Source of the DNA: a virus
DNA: 40,368 bases
Direction: 5' to 3' (one strand)
IMG/VR virus record: IMGVR_UViG_3300043410_000763
Span: 1-40,368 of that record
Shown here: piece by piece, positions 13,473 through 40,240 of the stretch
How positions within the stretch are numbered: position 1 is the first letter of the stretch
Layout of the letters: every line of letters begins with the position of its first letter
The notes under the pieces: generated by a model
Databases searched by the model: none
What the model saw: only the letters and a program-made list of their open reading frames with translations
Told to the model about the DNA's origin: nothing
Program-made: the position numbers and the translations under genes

Positions 13473-14816
13473 ATGGAAGTTGTGCATGGCATTAAGGTTG
13501 ACTACACTCGTGATTCGCTATTTGATGAACTAGGGAAAATACGATTAAAAGAAAGTTACATGAAAGATGAAGAAATTTCACCACAAGAAAGATTCGCATA
13601 CGTTAGCAGCAAATTTGGTAGCAATCCAGAACATGCACAAAGATTATATGATTATTCCAGTAAACACTGGCTTAGCTACTCAACTCCTATCCTCAGTTTC
13701 GGAAGAAGTAAACGAGGATTACCTATCTCTTGTTTCCTCAACTATATTGAAGACACAGCAGAAGGATTAGTAGATAATCTTTCTGAAACAAACTGGCTAT
13801 CAATGCTTGGGGGTGGTGTAGGTATTGGTTTCGGTATTCGTTCTGCCGATGATAAATCTACTGGTGTTATGCCACACTTAAAGATGTATGATGCATCTTC
13901 ATTGGCTTATCGTCAAGGTAGAACTCGTCGTGGAAGTTATGCTGCGTATCTTGATATCAGTCATCCTGATATTATTCAATTTTTAGATATGCGTAAACCA
14001 ACTGGTGACCAGAATATGCGTTGCCTAAATTTACACCATGGTATTAATATTCCTGATGCGTTTATGGAAATTATCGAAAAGTGTATGCTTGATCATGATG
14101 CTGACGATTCTTGGAATTTAATTGACCCAGCTTCTAATGAAATTCGTGAAACAGTTTCAGCTAGAGAATTGTGGCAAAAGATTTTAGAAATGAGAATGCA
14201 GACTGGAGAACCATATCTACACTTCATTGATGAATCAAATCGTAAATTACCTCAGTGGTTAAAGGATAAAGGTCTTAAAGTTAATCAATCAAATCTTTGT
14301 TCAGAAATCATTTTACCAACAAACGAACAACGAACAGCTGTATGTTGTTTATCATCTTTAAATTTAGAATACTATGACGAGTGGAAACAAGATCCTTTAT
14401 TTCTTTCTGATATTGCAGAAATGCTTGATAATGTTCTTCAGTATTTTATTGATAATGCTCCTGCCTCCATTGAGCGTGCAAGGTATTCTGCCTTACGTGA
14501 GCGCAGCATTGGTATCGGTGCTTTGGGCTGGCATGCTTTTCTTCAGCGAAACAATCTTCCCTGGGAATCGTCAATCGCAGTTGGACGAAACAAACAAATC
14601 TTCAAATACATTAGAGAACAATTAGATGCAGCGAATAAAAAACTTGGTTCCGAGAGAGGCGAGGCTCCTGATGTACAAAGTGAAATTCTTTTCGAAGATG
14701 ATTCTGGCAATTCCATTAGCGTTAAGTCTTCTGATTTTGTTACTGTTGTCCGAGGTGGTGAAGAAATGTCTATTCGTGCTTGTGCCGTCCTTGAAGGAGA
14801 TGATCTGAAAATGTAA
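13473..14816 (+). CDS. nrdA: ribonucleotide reductase large subunit, N-terminal piece (split NrdA-a)
   Basis: 447 residues covering the N-terminal two thirds of class I NrdA. It holds ISCFLNYIED (first redox Cys), NQSNLCSEIILPT (Asn-Cys-Glu catalytic triad) and AVCCLSSLNL (second redox Cys). The ATP-cone regulatory domain is missing. NrdA homology stops near residue 400 at RGEAPD. It is followed by a foreign tail of 47 residues (starting VQSEILFEDDSGN, ending LEGDDLKM) reminiscent of the end of an N-intein but lacking Cys1. An HNH endonuclease gene and then the C-terminal NrdA piece follow. All catalytic residues exist across the two pieces, so a working two-chain enzyme is plausible, as in Aeromonas phage Aeh1. 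AGAGG precedes the ATG. Confidence 0.92.
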   Translation: MEVVHGIKVDYTRDSLFDELGKIRLKESYMKDEEISPQERFAYVSSKFGSNPEHAQRLYDYSSKHWLSYSTPILSFGRSKRGLPISCFLNYIEDTAEGLVDNLSETNWLSMLGGGVGIGFGIRSADDKSTGVMPHLKMYDASSLAYRQGRTRRGSYAAYLDISHPDIIQFLDMRKPTGDQNMRCLNLHHGINIPDAFMEIIEKCMLDHDADDSWNLIDPASNEIRETVSARELWQKILEMRMQTGEPYLHFIDESNRKLPQWLKDKGLKVNQSNLCSEIILPTNEQRTAVCCLSSLNLEYYDEWKQDPLFLSDIAEMLDNVLQYFIDNAPASIERARYSALRERSIGIGALGWHAFLQRNNLPWESSIAVGRNKQIFKYIREQLDAANKKLGSERGEAPDVQSEILFEDDSGNSISVKSSDFVTVVRGGEEMSIRACAVLEGDDLKM

Positions 14817-14821
14817 AATCG

Positions 14822-14829
14822 CTAAATAA
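14822..14829 (+). promoter_or_regulatory. T4-late-like element before the homing endonuclease
   Basis: CTAAATAA in the 34-base gap between the N-terminal NrdA piece and the HNH gene, about 20 bases before ATG 14851. Free-standing homing endonuclease genes in T4-like phages often carry their own late promoter; this would express the endonuclease separately from early NrdA. Confidence 0.45.
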
Positions 14830-14850
14830 GCATTAGGAGCATATAATTAA

Positions 14851-15438
14851 ATGGAGCACCCAATGCTATACAGTAAGATTTACGATTCGATCATCGAACG
14901 AGCCAAGAACCGAGTTTTAACAGATTATTCAGAAAAACATCATATCTTACCTAAGTGCTTGGGTGGAACTGATACCCATGATAATCTAGTTAAACTTACC
15001 TTCAGAGAACACTTTATTTGTCACCAGTTATTATGTAAAATATACCCAGAGAATCAAAAATTAATCTTTGCATTTTCTTCTATGGTTCGAGTTTCTAGAA
15101 AAAACGCTAAACGATTTGATGTTCTAACTTCTAGACATTTCGAGATTGTTAAGAAAACTCTAGCACCTCATATGGGTAAATGGAATATTGGAAGAACTGC
15201 TTGGAACAAAGGTATCACTGGTGACGAATTAAAAGCGAATTATAAGAATGGTGGATTGACTCCACCAAAAATGAACGGATGGAAGTGGATTACTGATGGT
15301 GTAGTTAATAAAAAGATTCCACCAAATGTTGAAATTCCAGAAGGATGGATTAGAGGTCGTTCTGGTTTTAGTGAAAATAATCCAATGAAGAATAAAGAAA
15401 CATCTACAAAAAATGCAGAATTAAGGAAAAAGAAATGA
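14851..15438 (+). CDS. HNH homing endonuclease interrupting nrdA (MobE-like position)
   Basis: 195 residues. The HNH core reads EKHHILPKCLGGTDTHDNLV then LTFREHFICHQLL, with the paired His, Asn and His expected. NUMOD3-like DNA-binding repeats follow (PHMGKWNIGRTAWNKG; GFSENNPMKNKET). Such enzymes cut a target in related phages and spread by recombination. ATG 14863 (MLYSKIYD) has GGAG at 14853 and is an alternative start. It overlaps the C-terminal NrdA piece by four bases. Position and type match MobE in the split nrdA of phage Aeh1, though whether it is homologous needs an alignment. Confidence 0.9.
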   Translation: MEHPMLYSKIYDSIIERAKNRVLTDYSEKHHILPKCLGGTDTHDNLVKLTFREHFICHQLLCKIYPENQKLIFAFSSMVRVSRKNAKRFDVLTSRHFEIVKKTLAPHMGKWNIGRTAWNKGITGDELKANYKNGGLTPPKMNGWKWITDGVVNKKIPPNVEIPEGWIRGRSGFSENNPMKNKETSTKNAELRKKK

Positions 15439-16052
15439 AAGTTAAAAAAATAACAAAACAAGAATGGGCAGGAAACAGATTTTCACATTTAACTGCGATA
15501 GCACCAAATGCTTCTTCTTCCATTCTCATGGGCAATACTTCTCCTAGCATTGAACCTTATCGTGCCAATGCGTATCGTCAAGACACTCTTTCTGGATCGC
15601 ACTTAAATAAAAATCGTTATTTAGATGCAATCATCAAAGAACAATCTGTAAATAATAAAGAAGGATGGGTTGATGAAGTATGGTCTAGCATTATTGCCAA
15701 TGATGGTAGTGTTCAACATCTAGATTGGATGGACGACTGGACGAAAGATGTTTTCAAAACATCTATGGAAATTGACCAGCGTTGGGTAGTTCAACATGCA
15801 GCAGATCGTCAAGAATACATCGATCAAGCGCAGTCACTAAATGTATTCTTCCGTCCAGACTCCAATATTAAATACATTCATGCTGTTCACTTCCAAGCAT
15901 GGAAGCAAGGATTGAAAACAATGTATTATTGTCGCAGTGATAAGATTGCTAAAGCTGATAAAGTATCTAAGCGTATTGAACGTGAAGTTATTAAAGAGAT
16001 TGACCTAACAGCTCTAGCTGAAGGTAATGAGTGTTTAGCTTGCGAGGGATAA
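15435..16052 (+). CDS. nrdA: ribonucleotide reductase large subunit, C-terminal piece (split NrdA-b)
   Basis: 205 residues. After a short extension (MKVKKITKQEWAGN), homology to NrdA resumes at RFSHLTAIAPNASSSILMGN, with NTSPSIEPYRAN. The radical-transfer tyrosines appear in KTMYYCRSDK, and the C-terminal redox pair in ECLACEG, which reloads the active site with electrons from thioredoxin/glutaredoxin. No C-intein HN end is visible, so the pieces are probably joined by assembly rather than protein splicing. The ATG overlaps the endonuclease stop (ATGA), and GGAAAAAG is upstream. Confidence 0.92.
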   Translation: MKVKKITKQEWAGNRFSHLTAIAPNASSSILMGNTSPSIEPYRANAYRQDTLSGSHLNKNRYLDAIIKEQSVNNKEGWVDEVWSSIIANDGSVQHLDWMDDWTKDVFKTSMEIDQRWVVQHAADRQEYIDQAQSLNVFFRPDSNIKYIHAVHFQAWKQGLKTMYYCRSDKIAKADKVSKRIEREVIKEIDLTALAEGNECLACEG

Positions 16053-19412: not shown

Positions 19413-19688
19413 ATGGAATTTTTTAAGCTAGTAGCCGAACTCGGCTTCCCGATCGCTGCAGCAATTGCAGGCGGATATTTCGTATTTTTGACGCTAAAGT
19501 TCATCCTGGCAGGTGTAACTGGAGCAGTTAATGGTATGAAAGGTATAATTATCGCTCTCGATAAACGAGTTGCGGCAATGAACCATGATGTTATCCGTAT
19601 TGACACCAAAGTATCTCATGCTTTGGGAATCCCACCAGACCTAGATCGTATTGCCAGAGCAGAGCAATCTGATGCGAGGAGAGACTAA
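19413..19688 (+). CDS. small membrane protein, first of a tandem paralogous pair (YvrJ/holin-like)
   Basis: 91 residues from ATG 19413. One N-terminal membrane segment (GFPIAAAIAGGYFVFLTLKF) begins with the GFPI motif seen in YvrJ-like and small phage holin-like proteins. A helical, charged C-terminal part follows (RVAAMNHDVIRIDTKVSHALG). The next gene has the same plan and key residues (LVxxxGFPIxAA, GYF, D-x-IR-x-x-x-KV). Function unknown; a holin or an accessory of the following export block are both possible. Confidence 0.65.
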   Translation: MEFFKLVAELGFPIAAAIAGGYFVFLTLKFILAGVTGAVNGMKGIIIALDKRVAAMNHDVIRIDTKVSHALGIPPDLDRIARAEQSDARRD

Positions 19689-19984
19689 TGGATATCGTAG
19701 AATTAGTTAACAAATTTGGATTTCCAATTGTCGCAGCATTTGGTCTTGGGTATTTTATTTACTATGTTTGGCAGTGGGTTACTACTGAAATTAAACCAGT
19801 AACAAGTGAAGCAAATAAAGTTCTGATTGATTTAATAGATCGAATTAGGATGTTGGATAACGACCTTATCCGTTTGAATCAGAAAGTGAATGTCATATTA
19901 TCGTTACGAGAAAAACACGAAGAAAAGAACGATGGCATTTCAAAAAAGAAATTTAGCACTAGCGATTTTACTAATAACAAGTAA
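19688..19984 (+). CDS. small membrane protein, second of the tandem pair
   Basis: 98 residues; ATG shares its A with the previous stop (TAATG). The plan matches the upstream gene: LVNKFGFPIVAAFGLGYFIY membrane segment, then a helical segment with DNDLIRLNQKVNVIL. Its Lys-rich end (EKHEEKNDGISKKK) is encoded where the CsgF gene already begins in another frame (overlap of 53 bases). Sequence similarity indicates duplication of one ancestral gene. Confidence 0.65.
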   Translation: MDIVELVNKFGFPIVAAFGLGYFIYYVWQWVTTEIKPVTSEANKVLIDLIDRIRMLDNDLIRLNQKVNVILSLREKHEEKNDGISKKKFSTSDFTNNK

Positions 19985-20381
19985 CACATTCGCAGCTGAA
20001 CTTACTCATCAATTTAATTCTCCATCATTCAGTGGTGTTGGATATTCATCACATATTCTAACAATCGAACAACTGGAAGCAACAAGAAAGAAAGCTATCA
20101 AGGATGCTGAAAAAGCAGCCAACGATCAAGCTGCTCGTGATGCTAAAAATACAAATCTATCAAAATTTTTAGTTAACGTAGAATCTCGCATCTACGCTCA
20201 ACTATCGAAACAACTGGCAGACGCTATGTTTGCTGAAGGTGCGTCTGATAATGGTGCAATGGATTTTCAAGGAACTAATATTTCTTGGGTGAAAACTGGT
20301 ACTGAAGTGACTCTTACTATAATCGAGTCGAACGGTAATCGTACTGATATTACTGTTCCAATCGCGAGTTTTGCATTCTAA
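19932..20381 (+). CDS. csgF: curli assembly factor CsgF homologue
   Basis: 149 residues from ATG 19932. Signal peptide: FQKRNLALAILLITSNTFA, cut before AELTHQF. The mature start LTHQFNSPSFSGVG matches the CsgF N-terminus (FxFxNPxFGGN type), which plugs into the CsgG pore. The end (FQGTNISWVKTGTEVTLTI, TDITVPIASFAF) matches the C-terminal beta domain. In Escherichia coli CsgF caps the CsgG channel at the cell surface and anchors the fibre nucleator. CsgG and a curlin-repeat gene lie downstream, which strengthens the call. Confidence 0.85.
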   Translation: MAFQKRNLALAILLITSNTFAAELTHQFNSPSFSGVGYSSHILTIEQLEATRKKAIKDAEKAANDQAARDAKNTNLSKFLVNVESRIYAQLSKQLADAMFAEGASDNGAMDFQGTNISWVKTGTEVTLTIIESNGNRTDITVPIASFAF

Positions 20382-20390
20382 GGAAAATAA

Positions 20391-22400
20391 ATGTTTAAGA
20401 AGAAAATAGTTGCAAGCGTTATTGCGTCAATTTTATCTAGTGCTGCTTTAGCTCAGAACGTAATATTAGTTAATGAGTATGTTAAAGCAGGTGTCAACCA
20501 AACAACTGGAACATTGGGTTCTGGTGGCAATACTTCTCCTGGATTACTTTACGACTCAACAGGAACAGGTACTTTTAATACATCATACGATTATCTAACT
20601 CCTGGCTCTCCGTTCGAGGGATGGGCTGTTCGTATCGTTAATGGTGGAGTTGGAACAAACTATCATAATAATAATGCATATGTGACTCAGGTCGCAGGTG
20701 GTGCTTGGGTTGGAACACCAACTTCGAGTTCAGCAGTTTGGGCAGTTAATCATAGCGATTTTAACCTACAGCATACATATAGTTTGGGTGCTGGTAAACA
20801 ATATCTAGACATCGCTACTCAAATCCAAGCAAATATCGCTATGGATGGTTTATACTTCGCTAGATTTATTGACCCAGATGCTAGAGCAGCAGCTGGTGAT
20901 AGTTCTTCAACTGATAACGTGCGTGGTTATGGTGTTATTCCTAGAGCTAACGTAGTATTCTCTGAAGCGTTGGCGTCACGATATGCTTTAGGATTATACA
21001 CAACACAAGCTACTGGGACTAACACAAGTATTAGTCCTATGTGGTCAAATAACCCACAAGATTACTATGATAACACTAGTGGACACGATGTTGTTCGTGG
21101 AGATTATACCATCGGTGTCGCATTTTATTCTAGTGGATTAGCTGTTGGTGATATTGTAACATATCGTTATGCTTATATTTTCGGACCATCAGCATTCGCT
21201 TCTGCTTCTACTGCTATCGCTGGTGGAGCAGGTGGTGGTACTGCAGGAACAAGTAGTTTCGGTACATTGACTGATGTTGGATCTGCCACTACTGCTGCGT
21301 CAACTCCTTCAGCTCCAACTGTGACTGGCACTTCAGTAACTAATGAAGTTATTGTGACTGATGCTGTTAACACTTCTTTACCAGTATTAACATCATCATT
21401 GGCTCATCATGTTGCGAGCAAAACAGCTGGCGTTCAAACAATCGCAAGAGAAACTACAACAACTGTAACAAATCCTTGGGTTAGAACTACTAATACTACT
21501 CCAATTACAACTACATCATACAGCGATTCAACAACTACAACATCTCGTGGAACTACAACAACTACAACTGAATTGTATAACGTAGTTGACACTAGCGTGG
21601 CCAATGACAGTTTCTCTGGTCGTGCTGATCAACTTGAACAATTCGCAAATATCAAATCTGGTGTAATTAGAAGATTAAATCGTTTAAATGCAAATAACGG
21701 AGTTTCTGATGAAAAGGGAAGAATTGCGATTAATGGTACTGGTCTTACTTATTCTGGTAATTCTGGATATTCTGCTACATCGTCTATTGTTGGTTTAGCA
21801 TATGAAACTGATGTGTCAAAAAATTTAGTCGTTGGTATTCAATACAATAAAATTGGAAGTAAGATGAGTGGGGTTGATAATAGTGGAACTATAAAAGGTG
21901 ATCACTTTGGCGTTTATACAAATTATACTATTGAAGATTTCATTGTAAGAGGCGATGTTGGTTTAGCAAGTTTTAATAACAAATATAATAGAACAATTGG
22001 ACCATTCTCTAATTCTCTTGATCTTGATACTAAATCAACATGGGCTAACGTAAGAGCTTATACACCTAATGTTTATGGATTCCGTCCATTCGTTGGTGGT
22101 ATGATTAATAAAACAACAAACCCAACTAAAACTGAAGCAGGTAGTGTGCAGTCAGCAATGACAATTGATTCTGTTAATACAACTAAAACTACTGGTGAGT
22201 ATGGTGTTAGTTATGGAACTAAAGTTTTTGATGGAGATTTAAATTTAGAAGTAGGTGAAACTACTGACAAAATTAAAGAAGCAAATTTAACATTATCTAA
22301 AACTGATGGTAATACTACTTATGCAGTATTACTTGGTAAGAATTGGATAAATGATACAACAAGCAACATTATTGGATTAAACTTAAGAATTAAATTCTAA
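20391..22400 (+). CDS. secreted outer-membrane protein with autotransporter-like beta-barrel
   Basis: 669 residues with AAGGAAAATAA before ATG 20391. Signal peptide: KKKIVASVIASILSSAALA, cut before QNVILV. Residues about 22-275 are a Gly/Ser/Asn-rich beta domain without motifs I know. A Thr/Ala-rich linker follows (TTTTSRGTTTTTTELYN near 395-410). The last 230 or so residues look like an autotransporter barrel: alternating strands such as SSIVGLAYETDVSKNLVVGI, ending LNLRIKF with the terminal Phe needed by the BAM machinery. It would display its N-terminal domain on the infected cell. It sits between csgF and csgG; it could also be a bacterial-style adhesin acquired with them. Confidence 0.75.
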   Translation: MFKKKIVASVIASILSSAALAQNVILVNEYVKAGVNQTTGTLGSGGNTSPGLLYDSTGTGTFNTSYDYLTPGSPFEGWAVRIVNGGVGTNYHNNNAYVTQVAGGAWVGTPTSSSAVWAVNHSDFNLQHTYSLGAGKQYLDIATQIQANIAMDGLYFARFIDPDARAAAGDSSSTDNVRGYGVIPRANVVFSEALASRYALGLYTTQATGTNTSISPMWSNNPQDYYDNTSGHDVVRGDYTIGVAFYSSGLAVGDIVTYRYAYIFGPSAFASASTAIAGGAGGGTAGTSSFGTLTDVGSATTAASTPSAPTVTGTSVTNEVIVTDAVNTSLPVLTSSLAHHVASKTAGVQTIARETTTTVTNPWVRTTNTTPITTTSYSDSTTTTSRGTTTTTTELYNVVDTSVANDSFSGRADQLEQFANIKSGVIRRLNRLNANNGVSDEKGRIAINGTGLTYSGNSGYSATSSIVGLAYETDVSKNLVVGIQYNKIGSKMSGVDNSGTIKGDHFGVYTNYTIEDFIVRGDVGLASFNNKYNRTIGPFSNSLDLDTKSTWANVRAYTPNVYGFRPFVGGMINKTTNPTKTEAGSVQSAMTIDSVNTTKTTGEYGVSYGTKVFDGDLNLEVGETTDKIKEANLTLSKTDGNTTYAVLLGKNWINDTTSNIIGLNLRIKF

Positions 22401-23203
22401 TGCGTTATTTAATTACATTATTAGTAGTATTTTTAACTGGTTGTGCCAATGTCCATATGATGTTGGCACAAGAAGAACCAGTTAAATTAAAACCAAGACA
22501 AGCTCTAATAGAAAAGATACCAGAGTTGGATGGTGCACCGATAACAGTTGCTGTTTATACTTTCGCTGATAAAACAGGACAGAAAAAACCAAATGATAAG
22601 TTAGCGTTATTTTCAAGTGCAGTAACTCAAGGTGGTGAAGTGTTTTTAATTAAAAGTTTACAAGATTCTAAAAACTGGTTCAAAGTAGTTGAACGAGTTG
22701 GTTTAGATAACTTAGTTAAAGAACGACAGTTGATTAGAAATCAACGAGAAGTTTATGAAGGAAAAGATGCTAAAGCATTAAAACCTATGACTGTTGCTGG
22801 TGTAGTTATTGAAGGTGGTATTATTGGATATGATAGCAACATTCGCTCAGGTGGTAATGGAGCAAGATTTTTGGGAATTGGCGGTAGTCAACAATACCGT
22901 GTGGATGAGGTAGTAATTTCGTTACGTTTGGTTAGCGTTACATCAGGAGAAATCCTTTTAACTAACGCTGTGTCTAAAACAATTTATAGTACAGCCCATA
23001 ACGTTGGTGTCCTAAGATTTGTTGATGCTGGGACATCTTCATTAGAACTAGAAAATGGTTCTGCGTTAAACGAGCCAACAACGTATGCAGTGAGAGTGGC
23101 TATTGAACAGGCTGTTTATGAGATGATTATGGATGGAGAAAAGAAAGGTATTTGGAAATTTAAACCAAAACCAAACAAGGAAAACGAACAAAATGAAAAT
23201 TAA
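22400..23203 (+). CDS. csgG: curli secretion channel CsgG homologue
   Basis: 267 residues; ATG overlaps the previous TAA. Lipoprotein signal LLVVFLTGCANV with lipobox LTGC gives a lipidated Cys. The CsgG fold is shown by ITVAVYTFADKTGQKKPN, FKVVERVGLDNLVKERQLIR, VAGVVIEGGIIGYDSN, and YRVDEVVISLRLVSVTSGEI, plus a C-terminal AIEQAVYEMIMDG. CsgG forms a nine-subunit outer-membrane pore that exports curlin subunits. Length is near that of E. coli CsgG. The Asn/Lys-rich end overlaps the start of the curlin-like gene. Confidence 0.92.
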   Translation: MRYLITLLVVFLTGCANVHMMLAQEEPVKLKPRQALIEKIPELDGAPITVAVYTFADKTGQKKPNDKLALFSSAVTQGGEVFLIKSLQDSKNWFKVVERVGLDNLVKERQLIRNQREVYEGKDAKALKPMTVAGVVIEGGIIGYDSNIRSGGNGARFLGIGGSQQYRVDEVVISLRLVSVTSGEILLTNAVSKTIYSTAHNVGVLRFVDAGTSSLELENGSALNEPTTYAVRVAIEQAVYEMIMDGEKKGIWKFKPKPNKENEQNEN

Positions 23204-23789
23204 GAAATTAATCACATCTTTGTTATGTGTGACTGTTTCAACTTTCGTTTATGCTAATGAAATTTATATCGAACAGGTAGGAGATTCTTCTACTATTAGT
23301 ATAACTCAAGACGGTACTAGCAATAGAATCGGAGACTCACTATCACCAACATTCATTGGTGGTGGATCTAACACTGTTACCATTCAGCAAATAGGATCTA
23401 CTAATCAATTAGATGCTGTTGTTAATGGATCAGCTGCTTCTTTAGTTATTGATACTACTGGTAGCGGTAACATTCAAACTGTAAACTGTGGAACTACTAC
23501 ATCTGCTGGTTGCTCAAGTTCTGTTATAAAACAAATAGTAACTGGTGACGACAATACTATCACTCAAAATTTAGGCGCAGGTGCTAACCATAATAGTGAA
23601 ATAACTGTTATTGGTAGTACTAATACTATCACTCACACTTCAACTAACACTGGAGCTGCGAGTGCTATTGTTAATGCAACTGGTGATTCAAATACTATTG
23701 GAGTGACACAGAGTGGGACTACAGCGAAAAGCGTTACTGTTAATTCAACTGGTAACCTTAACAATATTACTATTAACCAGTCAAACTAA
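23193..23789 (+). CDS. curlin-repeat (CsgA/CsgB-like) secreted amyloid-type protein
   Basis: 198 residues from ATG 23193. Signal peptide: KKLITSLLCVTVSTFVYA, cut before NEIYIEQVG. The mature protein consists of degenerate curlin repeats with the N-x-(I/V)-x-(I/V/Q)-x-Q-x-G pattern: IYIEQVGDSSTISITQDG, NTVTIQQIGSTNQLD, NTITQNLGAG, NTITHTSTN, NTIGVTQSG, NNITINQSN. Such strand-loop repeats stack into the beta-helix of curli amyloid. A Cys-containing insert (NCGTTTSAGCSSS) is unusual for curlins. It lies just after CsgG, its likely exporter. CsgA versus CsgB identity cannot be decided. Confidence 0.82.
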   Translation: MKIKKLITSLLCVTVSTFVYANEIYIEQVGDSSTISITQDGTSNRIGDSLSPTFIGGGSNTVTIQQIGSTNQLDAVVNGSAASLVIDTTGSGNIQTVNCGTTTSAGCSSSVIKQIVTGDDNTITQNLGAGANHNSEITVIGSTNTITHTSTNTGAASAIVNATGDSNTIGVTQSGTTAKSVTVNSTGNLNNITINQSN

Positions 23790-24807
23790 TTACGCTGGTG
23801 TTGGTAAAGTCTCTGAACAGACTGGACCAATGGAAATTGTTAGAAATAAAAAGTCCATTGAGAGTAAAGTAAACTCTGAGGTGGAGATGAATGACGCAGT
23901 TGTAACTGCAAAGGCTAAAGCCAAATTAACTTTCGAGGATAACACGACAGTCAACATTACCGAGCAATCAAAACTCGTTATTGATGACTTCGTGTACGAT
24001 CCTAAAAAAGGTTCAGGTAAACTCGCAATGAAAGTTGTATTGGGTACTGCTCGATACGCAAGTGGTCAAATCGCAAAATCAAATCCTCAAAGTGTAAATG
24101 TTCAAACTCCAACAGCAACAGTAGCTGTCAGAGGAACAGACTTTTCAATGACTGTTGACGAATTGGGGCGAAGTTTAATTATGTTATTGCCTTCTTGTGA
24201 CAAAAAGGCATGTGTCACAGGTGCTATTGAAGTTTCTACTGAAGCTGGATCTGTTTTTATGGATGTGGCATATCAAACAACAATTGTTAATGATAGAAAC
24301 CAATCACCATCAAAACCAATCATCGTTTCGATTGACCAATCAAATATAAATAATATGCTTATCGTTTCTCCACCAAAAGAAATTGATGAGGATAAATATA
24401 AATCAGAAACAAAGACAGCATTAGATGTCAATTTTCTAGATGTTGATTTATTAAAATATACGAAATTAGATGAAGACGTTTTAAAATTTAATTCGCTTGA
24501 TATCAATTTACTCGATGTAGATTTATTGACTAATCTATTAGACGAAAGTAATAAAGCATTAGCTGCGAGTCAAGAATCAATTCTAGAACAAAAAACTATG
24601 CTTCCAGGATATAATGAATCATCTGGGTTGAAGTATGGTATAGATGAAAACGATAAGTTAGTTTTATATCGAATAAGTAGTCATACAGCACAAATAACTA
24701 TTGATAAAGAATCAGATAAAACAATAAATTTATCGCAAGATGGTTCAGTTGTTTATCAACAAGTTAATAGGGGTGGTAGCACTACTATTAACATAACACA
24801 AAAGTGA
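23713..24807 (+). CDS. FecR-domain protein with curlin-like C-terminal tail
   Basis: 364 residues. GTG 23713 is chosen because GGAG (23700-23703) is well spaced and because it yields a signal peptide (RKALLLIQLVTLTILLLTS, cut near NYA-GVGK). This means the signal peptide is encoded inside the 3' end of the curlin-like gene in another frame. The FecR domain runs about residues 35-155: AKLTFEDNTTVNITEQSKLV, VVLGTARYASG, TPTATVAVRGTDFSMTVDE. A low-complexity middle repeats LDVDLL units. The end (INLSQDGSVVYQQVNRGG, TTINITQK) resembles a curlin repeat. FecR domains act in periplasmic sensing or assembly. An interaction with the fibre is inferred. Confidence 0.8.
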   Translation: MGLQRKALLLIQLVTLTILLLTSQTNYAGVGKVSEQTGPMEIVRNKKSIESKVNSEVEMNDAVVTAKAKAKLTFEDNTTVNITEQSKLVIDDFVYDPKKGSGKLAMKVVLGTARYASGQIAKSNPQSVNVQTPTATVAVRGTDFSMTVDELGRSLIMLLPSCDKKACVTGAIEVSTEAGSVFMDVAYQTTIVNDRNQSPSKPIIVSIDQSNINNMLIVSPPKEIDEDKYKSETKTALDVNFLDVDLLKYTKLDEDVLKFNSLDINLLDVDLLTNLLDESNKALAASQESILEQKTMLPGYNESSGLKYGIDENDKLVLYRISSHTAQITIDKESDKTINLSQDGSVVYQQVNRGGSTTINITQK

Positions 24808-24816
24808 TTGGATGAT

Positions 24817-25206
24817 ATGGCATATAGCGAAAAAGTAATCGAACACTATGAGAATCCACGTAACGTTGGATCTTTCGATAAAGAAGATACCTCTGTTGGC
24901 ACTGGTATGGTTGGCGCACCTGCTTGTGGAGACGTAATGAAGTTACAAATTAAAGTCAATGATGACGGAATCATTGAAGACGCTAAATTCAAAACTTACG
25001 GCTGCGGTTCGGCGATCGCTTCATCATCATTAGTAACTGAGTGGGTTAAAGGAAAAACATTACAAGAAGCTGGTCAGATTAAAAACTCACAAATTGCTGA
25101 AGAGTTGGCTTTACCTCCAGTGAAGATCCACTGTTCTATTTTGGCTGAAGATGCTATTAAAGCAGCAATTAAAGATTATGAAACTAAATGTGCCTGTAAA
25201 CAATAG
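24817..25206 (+). CDS. iscU: Fe-S cluster scaffold protein IscU
   Basis: 129 residues from ATG 24817 (MAYSEKVIEHYENPRNVGSF). The three cluster cysteines are in GAPACGDVM (with the regulatory Asp), YGCGSAIASSS and IHCSILAED. LPPVK, the HscA chaperone recognition motif, is complete. IscU assembles [2Fe-2S] and [4Fe-4S] clusters from IscS sulfur and delivers them. No IscS is visible here, so the phage protein would depend on host IscS. Embedding between FecR and a lipoprotein gene is odd; IscA occurs far away at 38523. Confidence 0.95.
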   Translation: MAYSEKVIEHYENPRNVGSFDKEDTSVGTGMVGAPACGDVMKLQIKVNDDGIIEDAKFKTYGCGSAIASSSLVTEWVKGKTLQEAGQIKNSQIAEELALPPVKIHCSILAEDAIKAAIKDYETKCACKQ

Positions 25207-25214
25207 GAGATAAA

Positions 25215-25559
25215 ATGAAAAAGATAATCGCAGCATTAAGTGTAGTAGTTATAACTGGGTGTTCCATAATTTTACCGATACCGCATGATCCTGCCATGTT
25301 CAATAGTTTAGTTGAAGTTAAAATTGCTGTTGATAAAATTTCATGTCAAAACAAAGATTGGTCTGATGCTCAGAATAAAATTAAGCATCTAAAAGTTTAT
25401 ACTCAAATTAGAAAAGATCCTCAAGCAAATTCAATTTCTCAATTAGAAGATGCTATCAATAAAGCGAAAGAATCTAAAAATGATTTATTTTGCGAAAATA
25501 TTTTAAAGATTAATAGAACAAGAATTAATGTCATAGCGGAAGCGTGGGAGGGAAGATAA
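25215..25559 (+). CDS. small lipoprotein, unknown function
   Basis: 114 residues with AGGAG before the ATG. The signal (KKIIAALSVVVITGCS) has lipobox ITGC, so residue 16 is likely lipidated. The mature part begins IILPIPHDPAMFNSLVEVK and is mostly helical with two further Cys (ISCQNKDW, LFCENILK) that might form a disulfide. I recall similar lipoproteins in marine T4-like phages without a known role. The stop overlaps the next start. Confidence 0.6.
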   Translation: MKKIIAALSVVVITGCSIILPIPHDPAMFNSLVEVKIAVDKISCQNKDWSDAQNKIKHLKVYTQIRKDPQANSISQLEDAINKAKESKNDLFCENILKINRTRINVIAEAWEGR

Positions 25560-25789
25560 TGTTAGAACAGTTAAGAGAAGTTGCTGGAATGGGTGGACCT
25601 GCTGCAGCACTTGCAAATGAAATGTTAGTTATTCGCACTCAGTATGAGAACTCAGAATTAACTACAGAAGAATACCAATTCTTAATGCAACAGATTATTG
25701 AAGTTAGAGCTGCTCAAGATTTAGCTAATGATGAGCAAGCATGTCGTTATATTATTTCCGCTGCGCAAGCATTATCGATGGTAATATGA
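25559..25789 (+). CDS. small helical conserved phage protein
   Basis: 76 residues from ATG 25559 with GGGAGG upstream. Helical, with MGGPAAALANEMLVIRTQYE and LTTEEYQFLMQQIIEVRAAQ. It has no membrane segment or Cys pair that points to a function. It overlaps the cyclase start by ATGA, so its translation is coupled to the cyclase; whether it acts with it is unknown. Confidence 0.6.
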   Translation: MLEQLREVAGMGGPAAALANEMLVIRTQYENSELTTEEYQFLMQQIIEVRAAQDLANDEQACRYIISAAQALSMVI

Positions 25790-27798
25790 AAAAACTTCTT
25801 AGTCCATGGACAGCACTAGTAACTCTAGTGCTTTTGATTTTATTGCGAGTAGCTGATCCTAGTTTCATAGAGTCAGTTCGTCTTCGTTATTTCGATCAAC
25901 TAATAACAAGTAAAGGGACTACAGTATCAGAACAGATACACGTAGTTAATATCGACGATGCCTATATTCGACAAAAAGGACAATTCCCATTCCCTCGTGG
26001 AGAATATGCCAAACTGGTTGCTGATTTGTATTCTCATGGTGCTGGGTTGGTTGTCTTTAACATCTATATGCCTGAGCGTGATCGCTTTGGTCAGGACTCT
26101 CAATTAGCACAATTAATGAGGGAAGTGCCTTTAGTGCTTCCTCATGTTGCTACATCAGATAAAATAACAAACACATACCCACCATTCCGTCCAGGTGTTT
26201 CGGTTATCGGTGGTGATACTGCAACAACAGGCATCAAATATGAAAACATTGAACCTAATATTAAAGAGTTTAATAATACTTCTGTTGGGATTGGCGTTGT
26301 TAACACATTACCAGAAATCGATGGCGTCACAAGAAGAGTACCGCTCGTCGTCAATTCTAATGGACAACTCTACCCAAGTATCGTTCTTGAAACCTTACGA
26401 GTCGCAAGCGGAGACCCATCATTCCAAGTTAAAGTTAATGACGGATCAATCGAAGCACTCAGAATTCCTAAATTTGGAAAAATTACGTCTGACGAGATCG
26501 GTAGAGTATGGGTCGATTGGAGCTCTAAGCCAATTGAACATTCCGCAAGCAACTTACCAAAGAACTTTAACGGAGGTATCGTCATCGTTGGTCTCACAGC
26601 GAAAGGACTTAACAATCCAATCGCTACTGCTACAGGATCTGTCTATCCACATTACGTTCACGCTGCCGTTTTAGATACAGTAATAAGTGGAACAAATATA
26701 TCAAGACCTGACTGGGCATTACCAGCAGAAATTTTGTTTATGGTTGTATCGGTATTGTTATCAATATTTTTAACAAGGTATAAACATGGATATGTATTCG
26801 CAATCGCTTTGGGATTCATCACTTATTGGACAGGTTTCCAACTCTTTATTCGATCAGCTTATCTACTTGATGCTGTCTTCCCAATACTTACCATATTCGT
26901 CTGTAGCTTCCATGGATACATTGTCAAATTCCTTGTCGAATTGCGCCAAAAGCTCCAAATTAAAAAACAATTCGGAACCTACTTATCTCCAGCTTTGGTC
27001 GAAAAACTCCAACGAAATCCTGAACTTTTACAACTCGGTGGAGAATCAAGAGAACTTTCAATTATGTTCACCGATGTTAGAGGGTTTACGACAATATCAG
27101 AACATTATGGAAAAGATGTTCAAGGACTTACGAAAATAATGAATCGCTATATGACAGCGATGACAGCAAAAATTATTGAAAATAATGGTACGTTAGATAA
27201 GTACATTGGTGATGCTCAAATGGCTTTCTGGAACGCACCACTTGATGATAAAGACCACGCACTTAATGCTGTTAAGACAGGTCTTTCTATGTTAGGAGAT
27301 TTAGATGCATTTAATGAAGAAATTGCTAAAGAGGGTGTACCAGCTTTTGGTATGGGTCTTGGTATTAATACTGACACCGTGGTTGTTGGGAATATGGGTT
27401 CTTCTCAACGCTTTGATTATACTTGTCTTGGGGATGGCGTCAATCTTGCCTCAAGATTGGAGGGACAGTCTAAGCCATATGGTGTTAAAATTGTTCTTGG
27501 ACAAAGAACAGCCGAATTAGTTAAAGACCACTATCCTGTAGTTGAAATGGATTGCATCGCAGTGAAAGGTAAAACGCAAGGTGTTAAAGTATTTACTATT
27601 GGCAAAACCATTGGATATTTGCATGATGACTATTTGCAAAGTTATTATCGTGGCGACTGGAATCGTGCCACGAAAGTTTGCAAAGAATTAATCTCCAAAG
27701 ATACAGAACTTACAAAATATTATGAATCTATGCTGGAACGTCTCGAGGAGGGACTTCCTCCAAACTGGGATGGGACTTATAGAGCTACATCTAAGTAA
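25786..27798 (+). CDS. CHASE2-domain class III adenylate/guanylate cyclase
   Basis: 670 residues from ATG 25786. An N-terminal membrane anchor is followed by a periplasmic CHASE2 sensor domain (about 30-300; e.g. VNIDDAYIRQKGQFPFPRGE, GVVNTLPEIDGVTRRVPLV). Three membrane helices follow (about 307-380), then a class III cyclase domain. Metal-binding Asp residues are in MFTDVRGFTTISE and YIGDAQMAFW. The purine site has KYIGD and DYTCLGDGVNLASRLEG, with transition-state Asn/Arg. K plus T/C-type residues favour ATP over GTP as substrate. It would make cAMP in response to an envelope signal. CHASE2 cyclases next to FecR genes are known in bacteria; finding the pair on a phage is unusual. A strong terminator follows. 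Confidence 0.92.
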   Translation: MKKLLSPWTALVTLVLLILLRVADPSFIESVRLRYFDQLITSKGTTVSEQIHVVNIDDAYIRQKGQFPFPRGEYAKLVADLYSHGAGLVVFNIYMPERDRFGQDSQLAQLMREVPLVLPHVATSDKITNTYPPFRPGVSVIGGDTATTGIKYENIEPNIKEFNNTSVGIGVVNTLPEIDGVTRRVPLVVNSNGQLYPSIVLETLRVASGDPSFQVKVNDGSIEALRIPKFGKITSDEIGRVWVDWSSKPIEHSASNLPKNFNGGIVIVGLTAKGLNNPIATATGSVYPHYVHAAVLDTVISGTNISRPDWALPAEILFMVVSVLLSIFLTRYKHGYVFAIALGFITYWTGFQLFIRSAYLLDAVFPILTIFVCSFHGYIVKFLVELRQKLQIKKQFGTYLSPALVEKLQRNPELLQLGGESRELSIMFTDVRGFTTISEHYGKDVQGLTKIMNRYMTAMTAKIIENNGTLDKYIGDAQMAFWNAPLDDKDHALNAVKTGLSMLGDLDAFNEEIAKEGVPAFGMGLGINTDTVVVGNMGSSQRFDYTCLGDGVNLASRLEGQSKPYGVKIVLGQRTAELVKDHYPVVEMDCIAVKGKTQGVKVFTIGKTIGYLHDDYLQSYYRGDWNRATKVCKELISKDTELTKYYESMLERLEEGLPPNWDGTYRATSK

Positions 27799-27805
27799 AC
27801 CCAAT

Positions 27806-27829
27806 AACCCTACTTTATGTAGGGTTTTT
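27806..27829 (+). terminator. rho-independent terminator after the cyclase
   Basis: AACCCTAC (27806-27813) pairs with GTAGGGTT (27819-27826) around TTTAT, followed by a run of T to 27829. Ends the curli/FecR/cyclase transcript; a new promoter starts 12 bases later. Confidence 0.85.
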
Positions 27830-27899: not shown

Positions 27900-28400
27900 A
27901 TGATTCGTTGGATTGAAAATGTTAGTTGGGATGATGTGAAGAACGGATGGCACTACGACTGTGGTGACAACTCTATGCTGATTCAGATTGCTGATCCAGC
28001 ATCTTTCTTCCCAACACCGAAACGCAGTTTTAAAGAAGTTCATCAATTTGAATTTCTAGACGCTGAGGATGGCGATCGTTTTCCAGAGGAAGCGATGATT
28101 AGCGATGAGCAAGCAAAACAGTTAGTTGATTTGTTGCAACATGCAAAAGAAACATGCATGAATGTTGTTGTTCATTGTCATGCTGGAATTTGTCGAAGTG
28201 GTGCTGTCGTTGAAGTTGCTTCTATGATGGGATTTACTCCAACAGATAGGTATCGTCAACCAAATCTTCGTGTTAAACACAAGATGATGAAGGTGCTCGG
28301 TTGGACTTACGATGAGAATGAGAAGACTAGTAGCACTGGTGGTTGGATTTCTGCTGGTGGAATTGCTATTCCATTTTCAGCTGAGGATAGAACAGAATGA
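27900..28400 (+). CDS. dual-specificity/tyrosine phosphatase-like protein
   Basis: 166 residues. The phosphatase P-loop HCHAGICRSG (HCx5R plus Ser/Gly) lies at about 98-107 after a hydrophobic strand (MNVVVHC), and a preceding Asp-rich stretch (EFLDAEDGDRF) could supply the general acid. Such enzymes remove phosphate from Tyr, Ser/Thr or other substrates through a Cys-phosphate intermediate. The tail (SSTGGWISAGGIAIPF) is a short Gly-rich element. First gene after a fresh promoter; target unknown, perhaps a host regulator. No strong ribosome site is seen before the ATG. It overlaps the next gene by ATGA. Confidence 0.78.
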   Translation: MIRWIENVSWDDVKNGWHYDCGDNSMLIQIADPASFFPTPKRSFKEVHQFEFLDAEDGDRFPEEAMISDEQAKQLVDLLQHAKETCMNVVVHCHAGICRSGAVVEVASMMGFTPTDRYRQPNLRVKHKMMKVLGWTYDENEKTSSTGGWISAGGIAIPFSAEDRTE

Positions 28401-40151: not shown

Positions 40152-40240
40152 GGAGGGTTATCTCAGCTGGGCTGAGCACTGTCTTGAAAACAGTTGGACT
40201 GCGGAAGCGGTTGGAGTTCGATTCTACCATCCCTCCTCCA
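40152..40240 (+). tRNA. tRNA-Ser (anticodon TGA)
   Basis: Class II tRNA with a long variable arm (region CTGCGGAAGCGG). Acceptor GGAGGG/CCCTCC, anticodon stem ACTGT/ACAGT with loop CTTGAAA, T arm TTCGATT, encoded CCA. Last tRNA of the cluster. Confidence 0.92.

Follow-up and report, generated by a model that had tools for sequence, protein, structure and literature searches.

Why a phage should keep an amyloid exporter is a matter of published debate, and the question is raised again by a T4-like phage contig, IMG/VR virus record IMGVR_UViG_3300043410_000763, of which positions 1 to 40,368 (the window: the whole stretch of 40,368 nucleotides) were analysed here. In its middle, CsgF, CsgG, a curlin-repeat protein, a FecR-domain protein and an adenylate cyclase are encoded together with a protein that, according to its predicted structure, is a type Va autotransporter. 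Relatives of this autotransporter share heads with a second curlin protein of the same slot, which suggests that selection acts on display of the head, a question that can thereby be tested with single proteins. We lean towards regarding the locus as a phage-encoded module for display on the host surface, composed of a curli-type fibre and an anchored adhesin, and we think that this is somewhat more probable than the contrary. The parts of the module are as follows.

19413 to 19688, + strand: small membrane protein 1, 91 amino acids (aa), with a hydrophobic N-terminal segment (phrog_18771, 3.8e-35); the open reading frame (ORF) is listed from TTG 19374, with ATG at 19413.
19688 to 19984, + strand: small membrane protein 2, 98 aa, of the same family (phrog_18771, 8.3e-36); its 3' end overlaps the start of csgF.
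19932 to 20381, + strand: CsgF, with a signal peptide and the N-terminal plug-like segment ELTHQFNSPSFSG (Pfam CsgF 1.4e-15; alignment).
20391 to 22400, + strand: predicted type Va autotransporter, 669 aa (AlphaFold2 model; Foldseek match to NalP 1uyn).
20460 to 21185, + strand: autotransporter head domain (aa 24-265), predominantly beta, modelled with moderate confidence (AlphaFold2).
21630 to 22397, + strand: translocator part of the autotransporter, with the plug helix at aa 414-431 and the twelve barrel strands at aa 444-668, by DSSP of the model (predicted local distance difference test score, pLDDT, of 71-92 for the block except near 432-441).
22400 to 23203, + strand: CsgG lipoprotein pore, without SH3 extension (Pfam 2.6e-51; PDB 3x2r 1.4e-46).
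23193 to 23789, + strand: curlin-repeat protein (CsgA/B-like), with a signal peptide and six G-x-x-N turns (Pfam Curlin_rpt 4.2e-8).
23713 to 24807, + strand: FecR-domain protein, start uncertain (Pfam FecR 4.4e-11), with a C-terminal curlin-like repeat at about 24721-24804.
24808 to 25206, + strand: IscU iron-sulphur scaffold (TIGR01999 iscU 1e-69, above cut-off).
25215 to 25559, + strand: small lipoprotein, common to the close relatives L005, L006, L085 and L086.
25544 to 25789, + strand: small ORF, 81 aa; L005 and L006 have an 83-aa ORF of similar appearance (by eye) in the corresponding position.
25786 to 27798, + strand: CHASE2 and class III adenylate cyclase; the listed ORF begins at 25741 (Pfam CHASE2 4.9e-37, Guanylate_cyc 4.2e-18).
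27806 to 27826, + strand: terminator-like hairpin of 8 pairs with a T-rich tail, taken as the module end (consensus match only).

A first-pass annotation, made from the sequence alone, had described csgF, the barrel gene, csgG, the curlin gene and fecR as a consecutive and overlapping block at 19932-24807. ORFs and profile matches bear out that the five genes are real, intact and consecutive on the + strand. The overlap holds at three of the four junctions (1 nucleotide shared by the barrel gene and csgG, 11 between csgG and the curlin gene, up to 77 between the curlin gene and fecR), while csgF and the barrel gene are separated by 9 nucleotides. The block was also drawn slightly narrow, as the module extends from 19413 to the hairpin at 27806-27826.

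The barrel protein matches no Pfam or PHROG family, Pfam Autotransporter (PF03797) included; its homologue in locus L013 reaches Pfam Autotransporter at 1.2e-14. The AlphaFold2 model, built with 19 homologues (mean pLDDT 74.6), places a head at residues 24-265, a long beta arm rich in serine and threonine at 311-411, a helix at 414-431 and twelve strands at 444-668. The best PDB match to the barrel model is the NalP translocator 1uyn (Foldseek E 4e-10, template modelling score 0.81 over the target, root-mean-square deviation 2.9), followed by EstA, Hbp and EspP. Besides these elements, the protein has a signal peptide, an N-terminal head that is variable in the family and a C-terminal Phe, the type of signal read by the β-barrel assembly machinery (BAM), which is also present in 119 of 123 family members. 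On the strength of this model, the protein is a type Va autotransporter. The presence of such a barrel partner in a phage curli module, which the first-pass annotation had suspected to be new, appears undescribed: neither the three key papers (PMC7029224, PMC9004378, PMC9599517) nor the further literature searched mention it. It shares signal peptide, plug helix, 12-strand barrel and terminal Phe with NalP, EstA and EspP, but differs from them in being phage-encoded, in lying within a curli operon, in falling below Pfam detection and in belonging to a family whose heads are common with curlin proteins.

This last property is, in our opinion, the most informative one. Over the first ~370 residues, the autotransporter of L013 is like the second curlin protein of L265 (56% identity over 372 aa, E 4e-127), beyond which L013 runs into linker and barrel and L265 into curlin repeats. 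L013 also has one domain in common with the curlin proteins of L036 (45% over 160 aa, E 1.7e-39) and L019 (52% over 166 aa, E 6.2e-55). Within the autotransporter family the heads vary while linker and barrel remain similar, as in L004, where a head unlike that of the window is mounted on a related barrel. The alignments show that heads are exchanged, among relatives, between autotransporter and second curlin, for which no published description was found. Some heads of the relatives match F5/8 type C (discoidin; to 2e-12) and PA14 (to 6.8e-12), families that often bind sugars. The idea that the barrel proteins themselves contain curlin repeats, to which a long phmmer match between L013 and L019 could lead, was discarded, as the sequences show that the shared part is head plus linker.

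The recurrence of the module was studied by scanning viral contigs with CsgG, which gave 87 relatives, of which 80 were kept, and more were added by scans with barrel proteins, for which a narrowed alignment was used, the full one being too diverse. Removal of identical CsgG sequences left 87 modules with CsgF, CsgG and FecR (the match to the 87 relatives is coincidental), and 66 of them are complete in the sense that they run as far as the cyclase. The order csgF-csgG-curlin-FecR, with a curlin gene between csgG and fecR, was found in all 87. The complete modules differ in what fills the variable slot: an autotransporter between csgF and csgG in 7, an autotransporter between fecR and the cyclase in 12, autotransporter and second curlin in 8, second curlin only in 13, and neither in 26, where L273 is counted as a curlin protein and not as an autotransporter. 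An autotransporter is thus present in 27 of 66 and a second curlin gene in 21 of 66, the window having none of the latter; these frequencies are biased, because the set was partly gathered with autotransporter queries. The eight modules with both rule out that barrel and second curlin are mutually exclusive. On the CsgG tree, the four slot states require 19 changes against a shuffle mean of 32, and at least 2 independent events are needed to fill the position between csgF and csgG. For every module gene where synonymous divergence was measurable, the ratio of non-synonymous to synonymous substitution (dN/dS) is 0.03-0.33, with 0.07-0.16 for the curlin gene, and by these ratios the module genes are kept together under purifying selection. 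Some modules lie within contigs of 288-364 kb, and the T4 capsid family Gp23 was found in 5 of 16 records tested, four of them contigs of 288-344 kb, which extends the module to large T4-like phages.

The export and fibre genes can be assigned from sequence profiles. The first-pass annotation identified the genes and their phage setting correctly. CsgG aligns with the solved E. coli protein over residues 4-263, and its lipobox, LTGC, places the cysteine at residue 15; for CsgF no PDB sequence match was found at E 0.1. In its constriction loop, CsgG is similar to several bacterial CsgG (KPSD/KPND...); the Phe of the E. coli protein is retained there, but Tyr51 and Asn55 are not. Around two dozen CsgG loci carry a C-terminal linker, which in most of them includes an SH3-like domain of bacterial type, possibly an anchor to peptidoglycan; Pfam SH3_3 is matched at 2.8e-10 in L034 and below cut-off in L008. 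The Curlin_rpt match of the curlin-repeat protein falls in two stretches, its signal peptide was recognised by eye, and NCBIfam CsgA is matched at 3.9e-6, below the cut-off of that model. The small upstream membrane proteins gave no kinase or other confident match in Pfam or NCBIfam, and 59 of the 66 complete modules encode members of their phrog_18771 family before csgF or after fecR.

FecR is here suggested as a partner of the fibre and not as an iron regulator. It has only the periplasmic-type domain, similar by Foldseek to the PupR/FecR-type signalling domain (3.3e-4); it starts with a signal-like helix, and no cytoplasmic anti-sigma part was recognisable, only the FecR domain being matched in Pfam. 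The first-pass annotation ascribed to it a curlin-like tail. The conservation of this tail is clear, with Q342, I361 and Q363 invariant across 17 diverse sequences, whereas its statistical link to curlin is weak. A curlin model hits 71 of 74 real FecR tails against 395 of 1480 shuffled ones. The best FecR matches in 399 Pseudomonadota genomes end before the tail, 16 bacterial curli stretches gave no FecR or cyclase match, and in all three bacterial stretches examined around FecR hits a CHASE2-type cyclase lies within ~2.5 kb. Our inference is that two bacterial cassettes have come together in the phage module, tied by the FecR tail. The cyclase has readable class III catalytic motifs and matches PDB cyclases to 5.5e-33. 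Neither the curlin-like end repeat of FecR, nor the separation of FecR from curli in the sampled bacteria, nor the SH3-like domains on some CsgG were found described in publications.

Parts of this module are well represented in the literature. CsgF and CsgG were reported in pelagimyophages by Zaragoza-Solas in 2020 (PMC7029224) and CsgGF in Melnitz by Buchholz in 2022, with csgA/csgB stated as lacking (PMC9004378), although the Melnitz record carries two genes annotated as curlin-repeat proteins. Wittmers in 2022 (PMC9599517) described csgF, csgG, csgA/B, FecR and cyclase together in podo- and myophages, discussing sibling capture, superinfection defence and uptake. The core csgF-csgG-csgA/B-FecR-cyclase is therefore already published for pelagiphages and, in part, for Melnitz, and the first-pass mention of isolated csgG/csgF-like phage genes understates what is known; its ideas of a fibre coat, exclusion and aggregation are also largely present in these three papers. 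Two GenBank phages have the module, HTVC008M and Melnitz, each with two curlin-type genes (the second of HTVC008M by profile) and no barrel. The window has the same gene order, with small membrane-protein genes upstream, and shares with them 45-52% protein identity in CsgF and CsgG and 37-38% in FecR. It differs in the autotransporter between csgF and csgG, the inserted IscU and the absence of a second curlin, and its relatives go beyond that module in that some are T4-like phages of much larger size and some have SH3-like domains on CsgG. The small upstream proteins of the window occupy the position given to a histidine kinase by Wittmers et al., but no kinase domain was found in them.

Bacterial systems offer further comparisons. 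Bacterial curli (type VIII) operons share CsgG, CsgF and curlin repeats with the phage module, which differs in having no CsgE that was found and in having FecR and cyclase, both without a match in the 16 bacterial curli stretches. The Caulobacter holdfast anchor HfaA-HfaB-HfaD is also similar, in that a CsgG-like pore is required for bringing both a curlin-like protein and another, distinct surface protein to their place on the cell, but it anchors polysaccharide, and the portion of the source on which we draw (PMC6707917) describes no FecR, cyclase or autotransporter with it. The phage CsgG of L034 matches HfaB at 6.9e-13, below cut-off.

How might such a module work? In the infected cell, CsgG and CsgF would export the curlin protein, which would polymerise at the outer membrane, and the FecR tail might seed or cap the fibre in the role of CsgB. 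The autotransporter would be inserted via BAM and show its head on the same cell, so that a rapidly changing binding head, most likely a glycan-binding one, could be carried by the fibre, by the barrel or by both. FecR and the CHASE2-cyclase would probably report the state of the fibre or the envelope to the cytoplasm as cyclic AMP. Most likely, the infected cell would become adhesive or re-coated, tethering neighbouring hosts or masking receptors. We modestly favour adhesion over exclusion, since those heads that can be recognised are of families in which sugar binding is frequent. In the complete scheme, an exchangeable sugar-binding head would be mounted on amyloid fibre or barrel, and FecR would seed or cap the fibre and signal fibre assembly to the cyclase; the virus would then both re-coat the cell and monitor that coat. 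This scheme is put forward as a speculative proposal that is on balance unlikely to hold as a whole.

Several observations weigh against a display module of fibre and adhesin. No csgG was found in the fetched DNA of 66 of 113 loci of the autotransporter family (many of them short or cut), and, because the family also occurs in phages without csgG nearby, the autotransporter is not a dedicated curli partner; 26 of the 66 complete modules lack both autotransporter and second curlin. No family is matched by the window's own head domain, so that its ligand is a guess, and no curlin protein with a head of the window type was found, the exchange being seen for the heads of relatives. The likeness of the FecR tail to curlin is weak in hhalign (P = 1.1e-4, probability 56%), and the FecR model has low confidence (mean pLDDT 60, tail unresolved). 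CsgE, the usual export gate, was not visible in the first reading either, and PF10627 has no match in 13 phage records, including HTVC008M, Melnitz and contigs of 161-364 kb, while an E. coli control matched. Alphaproteobacterial modules also lack CsgE according to Wittmers et al. (PMC9599517), and its absence is therefore not exclusive of the curli family. Finally, no clumping was seen in Melnitz cultures (PMC9004378).

Could the block be bacterial DNA mis-assembled into a phage contig, as the first-pass annotation itself had contemplated? The csg genes are bacterial by origin in published phylogenies (PMC9599517) and the CsgG constriction is of alphaproteobacterial type, but phage genes lie on both sides: upstream primase, ThyX, split NrdA and NrdB, and downstream an exonuclease, a 2OG-Fe(II) oxygenase and nine genes for tRNA. 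The guanine-plus-cytosine (GC) content is even along the 40,368-base record (32-40%), and the core block, without the barrel, recurs in the sequenced isolates HTVC008M and Melnitz as well as in scores of contigs. Artefact or bacterial contamination is ruled out by the isolate genomes and the uniform GC, and we hold mis-assembly to be extremely improbable. A genome scan with CsgG gave 8 loci, of which 5 have the phage module, recognised by FecR or the small membrane proteins next to csgF-csgG, and the rest are short pieces, save L093, the single true bacterium among them. Contigs L088, L089, L091, L092 and L095, from metagenome-assembled genomes labelled as Flavobacteriaceae, Rhodobacteraceae and Pelagibacter, bear the module and look like mis-binned phage DNA.

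Accepting a phage module, other functions have to be considered. The same display anatomy would suit a superinfection shield, as proposed by Wittmers et al. (PMC9599517), in which fibre and heads cover or occupy receptors against competing phages and adhesion is a by-product. Rapid slot turnover would fit such an arms race, and the LpxH-like phosphoesterase and GT4 glycosyltransferase found in the same slot of some modules are consistent with more envelope change; the discoidin and PA14 heads, however, suggest an external binding target. Known phage exclusion usually needs one small protein, which also counts against a shield, and we consider it rather unlikely. The module could instead be just a gated outer-membrane pore of CsgG/CsgF for nutrient uptake or lysis timing, with the curlin proteins as relics, in line with the pinholin or secretin idea of PMC9004378. 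The pore may stand open if CsgE is missing, and the upstream membrane proteins have a weak likeness to the holin family phrog_4898 (E 0.016). Against relics stand the curlin gene between csgG and fecR in 87 of 87 modules, its purifying selection and the two annotated curlin-repeat genes of Melnitz, and we see little chance for a pore alone. It is also doubtful, in our view, that the autotransporter is an unrelated outer-membrane protein travelling in the same variable region, with the curli block working without it. The loci without csgG, the modules with neither protein and the repeated filling of the csgF-csgG position agree with this idea; the 1-nucleotide overlap with csgG suggests translational coupling, and the exchange of heads with the second curlin of the same slot speaks for a connection.

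Some observations on related genes deserve mention beside the display module. Autotransporters of the same family occur in phage contigs L196-L203, L207-L209 and L226-L254, with no csg gene in the fetched DNA, and those of L198, L208, L230 and L240 share one recurrent gene neighbourhood. Free-standing proteins of ~100-138 aa that are homologues of the last ~110 residues of the phage cyclase are encoded upstream of csgF (L034:8485-8859, L026:7987-8304, L180:3151-3471 and others); some loci in which no csg gene was found also encode such a protein close to the autotransporter. In FecR, a pentapeptide-repeat-like stretch at residues 237-276 has a leucine every five residues, a regularity reached in 20 of 20,000 shuffles; it has no Pfam match and low model confidence. 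The genes for the LpxH-like, calcineurin-like phosphoesterase and the GT4 glycosyltransferase are neighbours between fecR and the cyclase gene in L026:15275-17182, L064:13566-15476 and L077-L083, a pair that may resemble the PlcP-Agt lipid remodelling genes of SAR11. A full IscU inside the module was seen in the window only, among the first 87 loci compared, and a PHROG of phage NifU-like proteins exists. A T4 late-promoter TATAAATA ahead of the module was considered and rejected, as the single site in the window lies within fecR and is no more than expected by chance.

Outside the module, NrdA is split into 13473-14816 and 15435-16052 by a homing endonuclease at 14851-15438, with no Rfam intron at the gathering threshold in 13473-16052; split NrdA is known from other T4-like phages, which the NrdA of the window resembles. 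At 40152-40236, Rfam tRNA-Sec is barely at threshold (47.5 against 47 bits) and ARAGORN found none; a tRNA-Ser with a long variable arm is more likely, because the anticodon reads TGA. Directly after the module, at 27900-28400, a weakly dual-specificity phosphatase-like protein is encoded (Pfam DSPc 1.6e-5, below cut-off).

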